From Cyanobium sp. Morenito 9A2 (GTDB taxonomy: Bacteria; Cyanobacteriota; Cyanobacteriia; PCC-6307; Cyanobiaceae): a stretch of DNA of 64,000 nt. Position numbers and translations under genes: made by a program. The notes beneath the pieces were generated by a model. It was not told the origin of the DNA, made no database searches, and saw only the letters and a list, made by a program, of their open reading frames with translations. Below are positions 52,161 through 58,794 of the stretch, piece after piece (position 1 is the stretch's first letter; each line of letters opens with the position of its first letter). The stretch spans positions 1 through 64,000 of the forward strand of contig NZ_JAGQBJ010000003.1 of assembly GCF_024345575.1 (NCBI RefSeq), written 5' to 3'.

Positions 52161-52958
52161 TCAGCGTCGCTCTGGATACCAGGTGCGATACCACTGCCGC
52201 ATCTGCCCAATCTCTGCGCTTTGCACCTGCACCATCGTTTGCTGCAATTGGCGCAGCTCGGGGTGCCGGGTGTTCGTCTGAGCCATCGACGCCATCATCA
52301 CGCCCATCTGATGGTGGGGAATCATCTGCTCGATGAAAGCTCGATCGAAATCCGCGGCCCTGAGCAGCGCGACCAGGTTCGTACCCCCGTGGCCCATGGG
52401 GCCACCTCCCATCCCCATCCCCATCCCCATCCCCATCCCCATCCCCATCCCCATCCCCATCTCCATGGGGCCCTTGCCGCCCTGCCAGCCCCATCCCGAA
52501 GCGGGCCCCCAGGCCGGCACGGCCTGGCCAAACCACTGCCGGTACCAGGCGCGCATCTGGGCATTTTCCTTCGTCTGACTGGCGTTGATGCTCTTGGCGA
52601 GGGCCTTGATCTCGGGCCTGTGCGCGCGGGTGAGGGCGAGATCGGCCATGGCGATCGCCCCGTCGTGATGGGGAATCATCATCACGATGAAGGGCCGGTC
52701 CGAGGAAGCCATTCCCATCGGACCGGCAGCACCCATGCCTCCACCAGCGTCAGGTAGCCCTGAATCCCCCCTCCAGCCCTGGGACAGCGAGGGGAAGCCC
52801 GAGACCAGCCCCGCGCTGAACGCCCCTGCGGCGGCCAGGGCCACGACCGTCGCCCTCCAGGTTCTTCTCCGTCTGTGAGTGTGATCCACCTGAGCCTCAC
52901 CTGCGGGTTGCACATCCGCTTCCAGGCTGGCCAGGTTTGGAGGATGTGGGTGGCCCAT
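52161..52958 (-). CDS. DUF305 protein with an internal Gly-Met repeat
   Basis: 265 residues from the ATG at 52958; a GTG at 52889 is also possible. One TM or signal helix (ATVVALAAAGAFSAGLVSGF). It has two DUF305 units: FIVMMIPHHDGAIAMADLAL and, after the repeat, FIEQMIPHHQMGVMMASMAQ, each with the paired His and Met-rich helices linked to copper binding. Between them is MEMGMGM..., about eight Gly-Met units encoded by a hexanucleotide tandem repeat. Probably a periplasmic copper-binding protein of the adjacent metal block. Confidence 0.85.
   Translation of the reverse strand: MGHPHPPNLASLEADVQPAGEAQVDHTHRRRRTWRATVVALAAAGAFSAGLVSGFPSLSQGWRGDSGLPDAGGGMGAAGPMGMASSDRPFIVMMIPHHDGAIAMADLALTRAHRPEIKALAKSINASQTKENAQMRAWYRQWFGQAVPAWGPASGWGWQGGKGPMEMGMGMGMGMGMGMGMGMGGGPMGHGGTNLVALLRAADFDRAFIEQMIPHHQMGVMMASMAQTNTRHPELRQLQQTMVQVQSAEIGQMRQWYRTWYPERR
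52409..52461. repeat. Hexanucleotide tandem repeat (CATCCC, about 8.5 units)
   Basis: Plus strand reads (CCCATC)n; on the coding strand it is (GATGGG)n, in frame as Gly-Met. Unit gain or loss keeps the frame, so the length of the Met-rich stretch can vary by slippage. Confidence 0.9.
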
Positions 52959-54017
52959 GAGAGGAGATTCAACCTTCCATGAACGGGGTCCGCTGAGCCG
53001 TGGATCGGAGCTGATCCCCCCCAGGGAGTGATCCGCACCGTTGACCGACGTTGCCAGGGCCGGTTGCTTGACCTCGCCTGGGAGCTTGGGGCAGGAGAAA
53101 GGGCCCGTGCTGCCGCCGCTGGTGCTGGAGAGGCGGTCGGCCATGACAGATGCTCACGGCGCTCAGCCCCCAGCACTGGTGCGTTGGGGGCTGGTCAGTT
53201 GTGGACAGCTGCTTGCACTGCAGGTGTGGCTCAGCCCATCGGTCGTCGCGCAGGGAGGCGGGAGTGAGGCTTGAGCGATCGTCGAGCCGCGACAACGGGC
53301 CGAGATCCCTTCGGGCGTGGGGCTCCGGTGATGGCCTGATGGTTCATGGTCAGGGGGACGGCCGCGGGAGTCAGGGCTTGTGCCAGAGGCAGTCTTTCCT
53401 GGCGGTGGCGACGGAATCCTCGGCGAAATCGATGGCGACCCCATCCGCTCTGCGGAGGTAGGAGAAGGCGACGATGAGCGCCCCCTGGCTGGTGATGGTG
53501 TAAGTGGTGTGGGATCCAGCGGGCGACAGTTCCTCCCAGATACTCCTGATTGCGGAAGGGGGCCCATGGGGTCTCTGCCCGGTGTCCTGCAACCAGAATC
53601 GCCAGACGGCGATGGAACCGCTGCCGGATCGGGTTGTGGAGCCCAACGGAGACGAAGCAGCGGACATCTGTCGCCGCTGCTCAGGCGGCGGGGCCCAGCC
53701 CACCAGCCGGCTCAGGCAGGTGGGCTGGGTTGATCAGGGCGCTCACCAGCGGGCAACGGCAGGCTTCATCGCGGAACTCCGAAGGATCGGGTCACGGTGC
53801 TCCCGTGCAAGACCAGCGGAACCGGCATGATCCGCTCCAGGGCGAGAAGCATCACACTCCGATCCTGATGGCGAGGAGATCATGGAAGTCGATCTGCGCC
53901 ATGCCTTTGGGCACAGCCATCAGAACACCCCATCCCCATGGATCCGCGCTGACCTTGAGGCGTGATCTTCATCAGCGGCTCCGGCATCAGCATCACCCTT
54001 GGGCGGGACAGGCTTTT
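52959..54017. other. About 1 kb with no firm gene
   Basis: One minus-strand frame (53371-53664 at most) contains SIWEELSPAGSHTTYTITSQ and ALIVAFSYLRRADGVAIDF, which read like a real small protein of about 97 residues, but the family and start are unknown. Otherwise nothing is supportable. A TTGAATCTCC half-site, similar to the MerR operators below, lies at 52962-52971 on the minus strand. Confidence 0.35.
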
Positions 54018-54434
54018 TCAGATCTGAAGATTGGGGCAGATCACGTCGTCATCCTGAAGCGGATCGCTCTGCCAGTTCCCCAGCAGCGTTTGCAGCTCGA
54101 CCCGCAGCAGGCCCAGCTCCTCGATGCGTTCGTCGATGCGCCCGATCTGGCGGCTGAGTTGCTGCCGGATGTCGTGGCAAGGCAGTAGCCCGGCGTCGTG
54201 GGGAGCGAGGCACGCCTGAATCTCCTCCAGGCTCAGGCCCAGGGCCTTGAGGCGGCGGATGAAGGCCAGGCGCCTCAGGCTTTCCTCACTGAAGAGCCGG
54301 TAACCACCTGAGCTTCGGCCCACGGCAGGCAGCAGGCCGAGCTCTTCGTAGTAGCGAAGCGTCTTGACGGGCAGGCCACTGCGGGCCGCCAGCGCACCGA
54401 TCTTGAGGGCCTGGGGCGGGGACGGGACGATCAC
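54018..54434 (-). CDS. MerR-family heavy-metal-responsive regulator
   Basis: 138 residues from a GTG. The N-terminal wHTH is complete: KIGALAARSGLPVKTLRYYE, ELGLLPAVGRSSGGYRLFSE. The dimerisation helix has PCHDIRQQLSRQIGRIDERI, with one Cys at the position used by ZntR/CadR-type sensors. A second Cys lies in the C-terminal ICPNLQI. CueR's paired C-x7-C loop is absent, so the metal is not certain; copper is likely from the divergent operon. The operator-promoter at 54440-54471 overlaps its own start region. Confidence 0.85.
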   Translation of the reverse strand: MIVPSPPQALKIGALAARSGLPVKTLRYYEELGLLPAVGRSSGGYRLFSEESLRRLAFIRRLKALGLSLEEIQACLAPHDAGLLPCHDIRQQLSRQIGRIDERIEELGLLRVELQTLLGNWQSDPLQDDDVICPNLQI

Positions 54435-54439
54435 GGGAG

Positions 54440-54471
54440 TTGACTCTCCACCTGAGAGGAGACTCTAAGGT
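54440..54471 (+). promoter_or_regulatory. MerR-type promoter/operator of the copper operon
   Basis: -35 TTGACT and -10 TAAGGT are 20 bp apart, the overlong spacing of MerR promoters. The spacer holds the dyad CTCC-acctgaga-GGAG. The near-identical arrangement at 58763-58794 supports the assignment. Confidence 0.85.
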
Positions 54472-54486
54472 GGTCAAAATCCGCTG

Positions 54487-54726
54487 GTGTTGCTCCCGAT
54501 GCTGTCGCCCAAGCTGCCTCGTTTCTGGAACCTCTCGGTAGCGGCTCTGGTGCTGCTGGGTGCCAACGGCGCTCGGGCCCAGGCCAATGACATGTTCCCC
54601 ACAAAGATCGGCGCTGAGACGCGCGCCAAGGAGCTCAAGTGCAGCGGCACCTTCGCCATGGGCCGTGAGTGGATGCCCTGCGCCAGCTTCGAGGCCTACC
54701 AGAAGGCCGTCTCGAAGGAAAAGTGA
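54487..54726 (+). CDS. Secreted DUF3721 protein, copy 1
   Basis: 79 residues from a GTG just downstream of the MerR-type promoter. Signal peptide (LSVAALVLLGANGARAQA), then the DUF3721 core: MFPTKIGAETRAKELKCSGT, FAMGREWMPC. Two conserved Cys about 15 residues apart and nearby Met suggest metal binding or a disulfide. It is the first gene of the induced operon. Copy 2 follows at 54791. Confidence 0.85.
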   Translation: MLLPMLSPKLPRFWNLSVAALVLLGANGARAQANDMFPTKIGAETRAKELKCSGTFAMGREWMPCASFEAYQKAVSKEK

Positions 54727-54790
54727 GCCGTTGGCTCCCCCCATGCCTCTCGATCCGAGCGCTTCGGCATACCAAGACCACGCCATCCCC

Positions 54791-55036
54791 ATGAACACCC
54801 TTCCCTTGAGGCCGCACCGTGGTGGTCATGCTGCCCTGATCCTGGTCCTGTCCGGCGCCCTGGCGGTCTTGATGCCGCCAGGCGCAGGGGCCCACATGCA
54901 GGGCATGTTCAAGACCAAAGCCGAGGCCGAGAAGCGGGCCGCTGAGCTCAAGTGCAAGGGCGCGTTCGCCATGGGTTCCCTGTGGATGCCTTGCGCCAAT
55001 GAACGGTCCCTGCATGAGGCCCTGCAGAAGAACTGA
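54791..55036 (+). CDS. Secreted DUF3721 protein, copy 2
   Basis: 81 residues. Signal peptide ([20 protein letters not shown]), then [30 protein letters not shown], the same core as copy 1. A duplication within the operon. Its stop shares a base with the next start, so it is translationally coupled to the PepSY-type protein. Confidence 0.85.
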
Positions 55037-55338
55037 TGAACGCTCCAAGCAGCACCTTGCGCCAGCGACACCTACGGAGGCGCCTTCATCGCGCCCTGGT
55101 GCCGATCGCCGCGCTGCCGCTGATCATCACCGCCCTTTCAGGCTCGATCTACGGCCTGCTGCTGGCCCACAACATCGAGGCCTTCTGGCTCATGAAAATC
55201 CATACCGGCAACTTCGGGATCATCAATCTGCAGCCCTATTACTCCGCCATCATGGGGATTCTGACGTTGATCGTTGCCATCACCGGTGTCGGCCTGTGGC
55301 TCGACGGCCGCCGCAGGACAACCCCAGCCGTGAGCTGA
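55036..55338 (+). CDS. PepSY-associated TM-helix-type membrane protein
   Basis: 100 residues with two TM helices: [20 protein letters not shown] and [20 protein letters not shown]. The pattern R-R-x-H-R-x(n)-P-L-x-I-x-x-x-S-G, and the W-L-M-K-I-H-T-G motif after it, match short PepSY-domain membrane proteins often found beside copper transporters and in iron-reductase-like proteins. Its role is unproven. Confidence 0.72.
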
Positions 55339-55355
55339 ATGCCAGCAGCCCTCAA

Positions 55356-57542
55356 ATGCCGCTGCGAGCCCCATCGGTTGAAGTCATCTCCTCGGGTGAT
55401 GGTCCGGCCCCTGATGTCAGTCCCCCCATGAGCGCCCCAGTCCCAGCCCCGACCTGTTGCCATGGGGACAGCAGCGGCACCTCGACCCCGGACATGGAGC
55501 GGGAGCTGGCCCATGAACTCACGCTTCTGCGCCGCAAAGTCACCGTGGCGGCTGTGCTGACGGGCCTGGTGGTGCTCTCCAGCCTGCCCCACATGCTCGG
55601 AGGCCGTCATCTGCCCTTCCTGCCGATCTGGTTCACCAGCCCCTGGACCCAGCTGCTGCTCTCCACACCGGTGCTGTTCTGGTGCGGGCGGGAGTTCTTC
55701 AGCGGCGCCGCCTCAGCCTTCCGGCAGCACAGCGCCGACATGAACACCCTGGTGGCCGCCGGCACCGGCATCGCCTGGCTCACCTCGCTGGTTGCCACCC
55801 TCGCTCCGCAGCTGCTCACGGCGGAGGGGTTGCCAGCGGACGTCTACTACGAAACCGCCGCGGTGATCATCACCCTGGTACTGCTGGGCCGCCTGCTGGA
55901 GGCCCGGGCCCGTGGGCAAACGTCGGAGGCGATCCGGCGGTTGCTGAAGCTGCAGCCCCCCACGGCCCGTGTGCTCCGTGACGGTGTGCCGCAGGAGATC
56001 CCGGTGGCCCTGGTGGTGGTGGGAGATCGGGTGCAGGTGCGCCCCGGCGAGAAGCTGCCCGTGGACGGGGTGGTGGTGGAGGGCAGCTCCTGGGTGGAGG
56101 AATCAATGCTCACCGGTGAACCCACCGCAGTCGAAAAGGGCCCCGGCGACACGGTGATCGGCGCCTCGATGAACCGCAGCGGCAGCTTCAGCTTCCGTGT
56201 CAGCCGCGTGGGGGCCGACACCGTGCTCGCCCAGATCGTGGAGCTGGTACGCCAGGCCCAGAGCTCGCGCACCCGGGTGCAGAAGCTGGCTGATCAGGTG
56301 GTGGGCTGGTTCGTGCCGGTGGTGATCGCCATCGCCATTGCCGCCTTCGTGGGCTGGTTCCTGATGAGCGGCAACCCGGTGCTGGCGATGCTGTTCCTGG
56401 TGAGTGTGCTGGTGATCGCCTGCCCCTGTGCCCTGGGCCTGGCCACGCCTACCTCGATCATGGTGGCCTCCGGCAAGGGGGCCGAGAGCGGGCTGATCTT
56501 CCGCAGCGCCGAGGCCCTGGAAACCGCCGGCGGCTTGCGCACGATCGTGCTCGACAAGACCGGCACCCTCACCCTGGGCCACCCGGACGTGACCGATTTC
56601 GAGCGCTTGCCCCTGGCTCAGAGCAGCGGCCAGCTGCCGGTCCAGACCCTGCTGGCCGCCGTGGCAGCGCTGGAGGAGCGCTCGGAGCATCCGCTCGCCG
56701 AGGCGATCGTGGGCTACATCCGCCCCCAGCTCAGCGAGCCGCGACTGCCTGCCGTGGAGGGCTTCGAGGCGGTACCGGGCCGGGGCGTGCAGGGCACGGT
56801 GGCCGGGCGGAAGGTGCTGGTGGGCACACCCCGCTGGTTGAGCGAACTCGGCCTCAATAGCACCGGCCTCACCCCCCTGGTGACACGAATGGAGGCAGCG
56901 GCCTGCAGTGTGGCGGCGGTGGCGGTGGACGGGCGGATCGAGGCCTGCTTCGGCATCGCCGATCCGCTCAAGCCCAGCGCCGCCGCCGCCGTGGCCGCCC
57001 TGCGGCGCCTGGGCCTGCAGGTGGTGCTGCTCAGCGGCGATGCCCGCCGCACCGCCGAGGTGGTGGCGGCCCGGGTGGGGATCGAGCGGGTGATCGCCGA
57101 GGTGCGTCCCGCCGATAAGGCCGCGGTGATCCGCCGGTTGCAGGAGCAGGGGGAAGGCCCGGTGGCGATGGTGGGCGATGGCATCAACGACGCCCCCGCC
57201 CTGGCCCAGGCCGACGTGGGCCTGGCGATGGGCACCGGCACCGATGTGGCGATCGCCGCCAGCGACATCACCCTGATCTCCGGCCACCTGGTCGGGGTGC
57301 CCGCAGCGATCGAGCTCAGCCGCCACACGATGGCGAACATTCGCCAGAACCTCGTCTTCGCCTTCGCCTACAACGTGGCTGGCCTCCCGATCGCCGCCGG
57401 GCTGCTGTTCCCCTTCACCGGCTGGCTGCTGAGCCCGATGATCGCCGGTGCGGCGATGGCGTTCAGTTCGGTGTCGGTGGTGAGCAATGCGCTGCGGTTG
57501 CGCCGTTTCCGGCCCACTCCTCTCCCCGTGGCGGTGCCCTGA
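55356..57542 (+). CDS. copA: P1B-type copper-exporting ATPase (CopA-like)
   Basis: 728 residues from the ATG at 55356. All P-type landmarks are present: actuator TGEP (about 251), the metal site CPC in [14 protein letters not shown] (about 356), DKTGT with the phosphorylated Asp (about 400), SEHPLAE (nucleotide-domain HP) and [10 protein letters not shown] (about 607). Eight TM segments are consistent. No N-terminal HMA domain with CxxC exists; instead a Cys-Cys-His occurs in PTCCHGD. It would export Cu(I) at the expense of ATP. Its stop overlaps the cupredoxin start. Confidence 0.92.
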
Positions 57543-57997
57543 TGGTGCTTCCTCTGCTGATGGCGGGGGGGCCTGCCGCCCGCGCTGCGGCCGAGCCCCT
57601 CTGGCGCACGGTCGAGCAGCCCCTGGGCCTCAAGCTGCTGGTGGTCGTGGTCGGCCTGGTTTTGATCGCCTGGGAACTGTGGTGGTTTCTGGGGCGCCAT
57701 GGAGGCGGCGTGGCGGCTCGGGTGGGGGAGCAGGGCCTCCAGGGGATCACGATCACGGTGGATGGCGGCTATGCCCCCGCTCGGATCAAGGCGATGGCCG
57801 GCCGCCCGCTGCGGCTCTCTTTTCACCGCATCGATCCCAGCGGCTGTGTGGCCCAGGTGATCTTTCCTGACTTCCACAAAACTCTCGATCTGCCCATGAA
57901 TGCCACCACCAGCCTGGAGCTGCCGCCCACCGAGCCGGGGATCTATCCCTTTCACTGCGGCATGAACATGGTGCGCGGTGTGCTGGAGCTGGAGTGA
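57542..57997 (+). CDS. Membrane-anchored cupredoxin-domain protein
   Basis: 151 residues, starting inside the copA stop codon. One TM helix (LLVVVVGLVLIAWELWWFLG) follows a short N-terminal part. The domain ITVDGGYAPARIKAMAGRPL ... FHRIDPSGCVAQVIFPDFHK ... GIYPFHCGMNMVRGVLE has the cupredoxin fold with C-x..-H-x-G-M-type copper ligands. It may hand over or store copper on the outer face, beside CopA. Confidence 0.85.
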   Translation: MVLPLLMAGGPAARAAAEPLWRTVEQPLGLKLLVVVVGLVLIAWELWWFLGRHGGGVAARVGEQGLQGITITVDGGYAPARIKAMAGRPLRLSFHRIDPSGCVAQVIFPDFHKTLDLPMNATTSLELPPTEPGIYPFHCGMNMVRGVLELE

Positions 57998-58012
57998 CGT
58001 TCCGCCGCAACT

Positions 58013-58732
58013 TCAGAGCGCAAACAGAGTGTCGTACTTGTGGTACTCGGGTTTACGCAAGCCTTCCACCGCCAGCATCCGGCGCAGTTCGATGATCTCC
58101 GCCCGCTGGGCCACGATCACACCGCGCGCAAAACGATGGATCGTTGGGTTGGTGCTCTTGGCCAGGGCGTCGTGGGCCATGATCAGGGCCCCGCCGTGGT
58201 GATCGAGCATCCCCTCGAGGAACCACACCACCCGGTTCTCTTTGGTGGGGAGCTCACCCATCATTCGCATGCCGTCGATCTGGGCCTGGCCCATGCGCGT
58301 GAGCCCCGAGAGGCTGTTGGGATCGCCGCCGTTCGCCAGCGCCACCGGATAGACCGGCGCCTGGGGGTACCAGGCCTTGCGCCAGAGGCCCATGGCGCGG
58401 ATCTCGCTCGCCTGATCCCGCCAGATCGTCTTTCCCAGGGCCCCGACACCGGGCGCTCCGATGCCAAAGACGAACTCGCTCATGCGCAGAGCCCCGGAGT
58501 GGTGCTGCACCATGCCGTCGATGAAGCGCAGGTCGTAGGTGGAGCCGGCTGGTCCTAGGTCATGGGCGTGGCCGGCATGGGCAGGATTGACCCCCGTCGG
58601 GGCGGCCATGCCAGGCCTGCCGTCCATGCCGCGATGGCCCGCGTGGGGATCCATCTGGGCCAGGGTCGGGGAGGAGAGCAGCGCCGCAAGGGTGAGTGCG
58701 GAGACTCCGAACCGCAACACGGGTCCAGCCAT
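58013..58732 (-). CDS. Secreted DUF305 copper-associated protein
   Basis: 239 residues from the ATG at 58732, chosen because the MerR-type promoter ends 31 bases upstream. Signal peptide (FGVSALTLAALLSSPTLAQ), a His/Met-rich stretch (MDPHAGHRGMDGRPGM), then DUF305: FIDGMVQHHSGALRMSEFVF and later FLEGMLDHHGGALIMAHDAL. Two His-His-rich helices and many Met suggest copper binding. It converges on the cupredoxin gene but has its own copy of the operator. Confidence 0.88.
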   Translation of the reverse strand: MAGPVLRFGVSALTLAALLSSPTLAQMDPHAGHRGMDGRPGMAAPTGVNPAHAGHAHDLGPAGSTYDLRFIDGMVQHHSGALRMSEFVFGIGAPGVGALGKTIWRDQASEIRAMGLWRKAWYPQAPVYPVALANGGDPNSLSGLTRMGQAQIDGMRMMGELPTKENRVVWFLEGMLDHHGGALIMAHDALAKSTNPTIHRFARGVIVAQRAEIIELRRMLAVEGLRKPEYHKYDTLFAL

Positions 58733-58762
58733 GGGAGAGCGGAGGAAAAAGAAAGCAACACC

Positions 58763-58794
58763 ACCGTATGGTCTCCCCTCAGATGGAGAGTCAA
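58763..58794 (-). promoter_or_regulatory. Second MerR-type promoter/operator
   Basis: On the minus strand: TTGACT, 20-bp spacer with CTCC-atctgagg-GGAG, then TACGGT. It differs from 54440-54471 at only a few positions in the dyad and shares the same spacing. So the DUF305 gene is probably induced by the same regulator. Confidence 0.85.

Follow-up and report, generated by a model that had tools for sequence, protein, structure and literature searches.

Genes and promoters at the merR locus

The window analysed here is a 64-kb (64,000-nucleotide) stretch of the genome of Cyanobium sp. Morenito 9A2 (contig NZ_JAGQBJ010000003.1). On its minus strand, merR (54018..54434) encodes a MerR-family metal regulator of 138 aa from a GTG start, identified by Pfam (PF13411, 66.1 bits; PF09278, 57.5 bits; PF00376, 55.5 bits; all above cut-off) and by alignments. 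Divergent from merR on the plus strand are the genes for a DUF3721 protein with a signal-peptide-like N-terminus (54487..54726; GTG start, or ATG at 54499; Pfam DUF3721 39.6 bits, cut-off 27), a second DUF3721 protein (54791..55036; 52.2 bits, same cut-off), a small membrane protein similar to a PepSY-associated TM region (55036..55338), a CopA-type P1B ATPase of 728 aa (55356..57542; TIGR01511 607 bits, cut-off 397) and a membrane-anchored cupredoxin (57542..57997; Cupredoxin_1 64.5 bits). Between 54791 and 57997, neighbouring genes overlap or are at most 17 bp apart, a spacing that makes a single operon likely. The ATPase contains CPC, YN and MxxSS, which we take to be the Cu(I) P1B-1 signature, and has no CxxC motif.

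On the minus strand beyond the cupredoxin gene lies the gene for a DUF305 protein (58013..58732; DUF305 88.2 bits), which resembles CopM in having HH motifs at two places and differs from it in falling under the cut-off of the CopM model NF049983 (77.1 bits, cut-off 90). The earlier note had read this gene content correctly for the two DUF3721 proteins, CopA, the cupredoxin and the DUF305 protein, but its 'PepSY-type' protein has a sub-threshold match alone (PepSY_TM 23.6 bits, cut-off 28.8); the gene for this small membrane protein is a conserved member of the operon. A second DUF305/CopM-like protein, encoded at 52161-53144 on the minus strand, scores above the CopM cut-off (96.4 bits) and has a run of Met-Gly repeats.

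Two similar promoters flank the plus-strand genes. Promoter A (54440..54471, plus strand), a site conserved beside merR orthologues, consists of a -35 element TTGACT (54440-54445), a 20-bp spacer CTCCACCTGAGAGGAGACTC and a -10 element TAAGGT (54466-54471). Promoter B (58763..58794, minus strand), 5' of the DUF305 gene, has TTGACT at 58794-58789, a 20-bp spacer CTCCATCTGAGGGGAGACCA and TACGGT at 58768-58763. Both contain CTCC-N8-GGAG, and the two 32-mers are identical at 27 of 32 positions as counted by eye; the earlier note's description of these elements, their positions and their shared dyad was exact. The dyad of operator A spans 22 bp (54443-54464) inside the 20-bp spacer, with the -35 element ending at 54445. 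A spacer of 20 bp is found at both window sites and in the family sites described below, in line with the 19-20 bp promoter spacers in which MerR-type activators have their dyads. The merR start codon is 5 bp from the -35 element of promoter A, and a putative Shine-Dalgarno-like GGTGGAGAG of merR (54445..54453, minus strand) falls within the left half of operator A, an arrangement under which merR would be autoregulated. Across 54432-54453, the conserved CTCC may serve merR translation as well as DNA binding.

The two sites stand alone in their genome. A scan of all 3,103,610 bases (26 contigs) for TTGACTCTCC-N8-GGAG, which the earlier note had proposed as a check, returned just sites A and B, the same two matches as in the 64-kb window, against a uniform-base expectation of about 0.02 per genome for an exact 14-base match. 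Allowing three or fewer mismatches to the 32-bp pattern again gave A and B alone in the 3.1-Mb genome, and the reversed-pattern control gave 0. A position-weight scan of the window scored the two sites at 46.8 and 44.0 bits, with the next match, at 14.0 bits, being the first site in reverse. We also considered whether the regulon extends further in this genome and rejected this, as the 32-bp pattern yielded no third site at three or fewer mismatches. Weaker, two-mismatch matches to TTGACTCTCC-N8-GGAG occurred at eight further places, sites A and B and the reverse of one of them left aside, a chance-like number (control, 14).

The position-weight scan found no operator 5' of the second DUF305 gene of the window, and a second DUF3721 pair elsewhere in the genome (G000:C4) has no operator nearby. 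That second pair (L155:6334-7028) has V-x-M-G-V repeats and a His stretch in frame before its second member.

A probable operator conserved in Cyanobiaceae

Orthologues of merR were called at E ≤ 1e-32, a threshold at which paralogues (about 40% identity) stood clearly apart, and were present in 30 of 201 family genomes. Of a larger set of 400 family genomes that contains these 201, 49 have the exact core TTGACTCTCC-N8-GGA-NN-C-NN-TA and 351 lack it, and none has the reversed pattern. The core was present in 29 of the 30 carriers of a merR orthologue versus 2 of 171 non-carriers (Fisher P = 1.6e-31, phylogeny not corrected). In one of the two pattern-bearing non-carriers merR is degraded and contains in-frame stops, and in the other the site lies near a contig end. 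The operator is conserved across genera, and relatives in this group include Synechococcus sp. J7-Johnson, 1G10, Cruz-7E5 and SynAce01. As judged from these comparisons, the operator pattern belongs to a family-wide regulon. The earlier note had called the regulon small, which holds for its own genome, with two sites, but not for relatives, which have up to seven sites per genome among the matches listed.

Chance similarity between two promoters has nothing but the short length of the motif in its favour, whereas the sites are unique genome-wide, the reversed control gave 0 in 400 genomes and the operator recurs across genera. Chance origin is refuted by this conservation, and we give it a negligible probability.

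Eighty regions cover the listed family sites, one of them being the second DUF3721 pair of the window's own genome. With a slightly relaxed pattern, 141 sites were collected from the family loci and the window, related genomes being left unweighted, and 134 of them have one of eight target seeds in the following 700 bp. As at promoter B, the first downstream gene encodes a DUF305 protein at 52 of the 141 sites; at the others it is DUF3721 (30), CopA (24), DUF411 (15), multicopper oxidase (6), glutaredoxin-MauE (4), a small CCCC peptide (3) or unrecognised (7), and Pfam names among the targets include DUF411, MauE/glutaredoxin and Cu-oxidase_3. Several seeds were chosen from genes beside sites, so these tallies are partly circular, and random points in the same loci served as the control: the start of a non-MerR target lay within 200 bp of 83% of sites versus 3.6% of random points. 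At 28 of the 30 sites followed by DUF3721, merR is divergent. Promoter versions differ by target, with GGAGACTCTAAgcT 5' of DUF3721, GGAGACCATACGGT 5' of DUF305 and GGAGcCCaTAgGgT 5' of CopA. Taken with the co-occurrence of operator and regulator, the conservation and the downstream genes strongly support the proposal that A and B are operators of one MerR regulon; the earlier note had the sites right, and its reading of them as a regulon is very probably correct too.

At three family sites (L076:5001, L086:164 and L095:13822), the operator is followed by a gene for a small secreted-looking peptide. The L076 peptide, which ends in GGCCCCKQPMKNMN and matches no Pfam family, may bind metal. At L150:5001, a transposase-like ORF takes the place of the usual DUF3721 genes after a conserved operator beside merR, and the final -10 base of this operator is changed.

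DUF3721 and a second MerR clade

The DUF3721 family occurs in 173 of the 201 family genomes, which places most DUF3721 genes outside the regulon. Its invariant core, C-x-G-x3-M-G-x2-W-M-P-C, has two Cys and two Met and, judging by these residues, could hold Cu(I). An AlphaFold model has good confidence for residues ~41-80 alone (a helix, two short strands and a helix); Foldseek returned no match to this fold in the PDB at E ≤ 0.001, and the profile matched no PDB sequence significantly. No mention of 'DUF3721' was found in the literature searched.

Twelve loci (L334-L345) were inspected for a second MerR clade, which shares about 40-44% identity with the window protein and has the motif CTC...W-Q-S-C-G-G; nine of them were chosen for the proximity of MerR to DUF3721 and three taken as fillers. 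At 9 of the 12 (L334-L341 and L343), the regulator is divergent from an operon of DUF305, DUF3721 and a small membrane protein, with a gene for DUF411, glutaredoxin-MauE, multicopper oxidase or CopA close by in eight of these nine. At a tenth, L345, the DUF305 match is weak, and L342 and L344 have DUF3721 alone beside merR. As read by eye, the intergenic region of 10 of the 12 loci contains TTGACTCTCC-N7-GGAG, one base shorter than the dyad of the window. That two sister regulators face the same cargo makes the link between DUF3721 and metal stronger. The earlier note had tied both DUF3721 and DUF305 to a metal response; only the DUF3721 link is new, since DUF305 was already linked to copper through CopM and the Anabaena copM homologues (PMC4335983). 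The regulon offers a first testable role for DUF3721.

Sites A and B might instead be operators of another regulator, beside which the neighbouring MerR is incidental: the second clade faces TTGACTCTCC-N7-GGAG together with DUF305-DUF3721 operons, so related regulators share half-sites. However, the N8 pattern tracks the MerR clade of the window, clade-2 sites differ by one central base, and 7 of 33 sites from across the class lie directly 5' of merR. We therefore regard control by another regulator as very unlikely.

The sensor differs from CueR

The window MerR has Cys86 at the Cys79 position and Cys133 at the Cys120 position, with Trp121 near the Cys112 position. In an alignment of 15 sequences, Cys86, Cys133, Asp80, Gly82, Pro85, Trp121, Ile132 and Pro134 are invariant. 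Among 50 non-redundant orthologues and a class-wide set, the stretch corresponding to CueR Ser77 has P-C at its end, mostly as D-x-G-x-(L/I/V)-P-C, and the C-terminus contains I-C-P. By alignment, Cys86 stands in the region of E. coli CueR Ser77, the position equivalent to CueR Cys112 is not Cys, and the C-terminal ICP supplies a single cysteine. Scores on the CueR models are far under their cut-offs (TIGR02044, 71.8 bits against 147.4; NF007590, 45.3 against 244). On the mercury MerR model the protein scores 82.1 bits against 150.85 and has two of the three cysteine positions (79, 114 and 123). Ranked by NCBIfam, mercury MerR and ZntR/CadR are nearest and CueR is fifth, all below cut-off. By these sequence features the window MerR is not a CueR, and its metal ligands are probably C86 and the lone cysteine of the C-terminal loop, C133, in place of the Cys112/Cys120 pair of CueR.

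According to PMC11591864, every responder to monovalent ions has Ser at the CueR Ser77 place and responders to divalent ions have Cys there, and the S77C change makes CueR respond to Cu(I) as well as to divalent ions. With Cys at this place, either the protein is a copper sensor that breaks the Ser/Cys rule or the regulon answers divalent ions. The natural inducer of the same MerR regulon could thus be more than one metal, or one of the soft divalent metals Zn, Cd, Hg and Pb. The Cys79-type cysteine of the orthologues, the behaviour of CueR S77C and the best NCBIfam models, MerR(Hg), ZntR and CadR-PbrR, point that way; the missing Cys112 and this ranking also count against a Cu(I) sensor. The targets, however, are of copper type, namely a P1B-1 ATPase, a cupredoxin, the CopM-like DUF305 protein, multicopper oxidase, DUF411, an Atx1-like chaperone and plastocyanin-like proteins, and favour copper as the inducer; zinc, cadmium and mercury genes are absent among the named targets, and the Cys114/Cys123-type pairs are incomplete. 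A divalent or multi-metal inducer is in our judgement unlikely, and the copper assignment of the earlier note is well supported by target content, although the Cys79-type residue of the sensor leaves divalent ions possible. The regulon provides a naturally occurring case in which to test whether Ser or Cys at this place sets the metal choice of MerR sensors.

We consider it likely that a MerR-type activator, most plausibly responsive to Cu(I), acts on these 20-bp-spacer promoters. A dimer of the MerR protein would bind the 22-bp dyad, approximately ACTCTCC-N8-GGAGACT, in the over-long spacer of both promoters, keeping them silent when metal-free and, when metal-bound, distorting the DNA such that RNA polymerase could use the -35 and -10 elements. 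The inducer would most likely be Cu(I) and probably also Ag(I). Promoter A, which spans the merR start, would drive the genes for the two DUF3721 proteins, the small membrane protein, CopA and the cupredoxin, and promoter B that for the CopM-like DUF305 protein. As a result, CopA would export cytosolic Cu(I), and the cupredoxin, the DUF305 protein and presumably DUF3721 would bind and handle it at the envelope.

Relation to known metal regulons

The CueR regulon of E. coli and relatives is similar in having a MerR-type regulator, a long-spacer dyad promoter and CopA and multicopper oxidase as targets; here too the ATPase is of the Cu(I) P1B-1 type (TIGR01511 and the CPC, YN and MxxSS motifs), and the operator suggests that CopA would be under MerR control. 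CueR promoters have a spacer of 19 bp and a dyad of 21 bp, in contrast to 20 and 22 bp here, and the present system further differs in having Cys for Ser77, no Cys112, the half-site ACTCTCC and, as targets, DUF3721, DUF305, DUF411 and Grx-MauE. Beyond the two sites, the larger finding is very probably a copper regulon of cyanobacteria under a MerR sensor other than CueR.

In the account of Korostelev et al. (2016), the CueR motif is 21 bp and that of the HMRTR (Cyanobacteria) group 22 bp, with the centre of the site 8 bp from the -35 element (PMC5045206). Operator A has this geometry (dyad 54443-54464, -35 end at 54445), and the operator motif may therefore already be catalogued in the supplement of that paper; the parts of its text considered here name no metal and no target genes for the cyanobacterial members (PMC5045206).

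CopMRS/CopBAC of Synechocystis 6803 likewise combines the DUF305 protein CopM with RND copper export, but CopM is controlled by the two-component system CopRS and not by a one-component MerR protein, as described in PMC4284471, which counts against a copper MerR. CoaR/CorR of Synechocystis is also a cyanobacterial MerR regulator of a P-type ATPase, but it responds to cobalt and carries a precorrin isomerase domain according to the same source (PMC4284471). A 2023 survey of marine bacteria describes Cyanobacteriota with two-component and CorE copper systems and, in the part of its text considered here, no one-component copper regulators (PMC10141476); the regulon would be the cytosolic copper switch missing from that picture. 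A term search of the main text of PMC1526738 returned no mention of cyanobacteria. No earlier description of the regulon was found in the freely accessible literature searched.

Distribution across the class and phylum

The MerR subfamily is spread across the phylum, being present in 82 of 386 genomes at E ≤ 1e-28; a CopA ATPase adjoins merR at 2 of 15 phylum-wide loci inspected (L242 and L249). Within the class, a 28-bp pattern with at most one mismatch occurs in 59 of 242 genomes, at 78 places among the matches listed versus 7 control matches in the same 242 genomes. Read by eye, the class-wide sites are nearer to a perfect palindrome, approximately TTGACTCTCCAGTTnACTGGAGACTTTA. Thirty-three of these sites, in 30 loci, are followed by genes for an HMA (Atx1-like) chaperone (12), merR (7), DUF305 (5), DUF411 (2), CopA (2), HlyD (2), plastocyanin-like proteins (2) or none (1), and RND efflux genes are among those preceded by near-identical sites across the class. 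On a wider reading, which we hold to be possible rather than probable, much of the class Cyanobacteriia would have its own one-component Cu(I) sensor, built against the serine rule from the Cys79-type cysteine of one subunit and the single C-terminal cysteine of the other, with a regulon reaching from Atx1 to plastocyanin; DUF3721 proteins would form a new group of Cu(I) binders at the envelope.

Nine stretches from named plasmids were scanned with a weight matrix that gave 1 match in 2.6 Mb of shuffled sequence. In Chroococcidiopsis thermalis PCC 7203, Nostoc sp. C052 and Anabaena cylindrica PCC 7122, strong sites precede DUF305, and in Leptolyngbya sp. NIES-3755 they precede merR. The same scan found no site in the DUF305 stretches of S. 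elongatus PCC 7942 and Gloeothece PCC 7822, which, with the second DUF305 gene and second DUF3721 pair of the window's own genome, count against the regulon reading, as does the lack of the core pattern in 351 of 400 family genomes. In Anabaena PCC 7120, a northern blot is reported to show copper induction of the copM homologues all7594, all7633 and all4988, with all7633 followed by two RND genes (PMC4335983). The order of all7633 and its two RND genes recurs in Nostoc C052, with the operator in front, and the copper induction in Anabaena, which comes closest to experimental evidence, lends the proposed regulon indirect support. In two class genomes, genes for plastocyanin/cupredoxin-like proteins (Pfam Copper-bind) begin 37-87 bp after near-consensus operators (L268:1501 and L291:1501).
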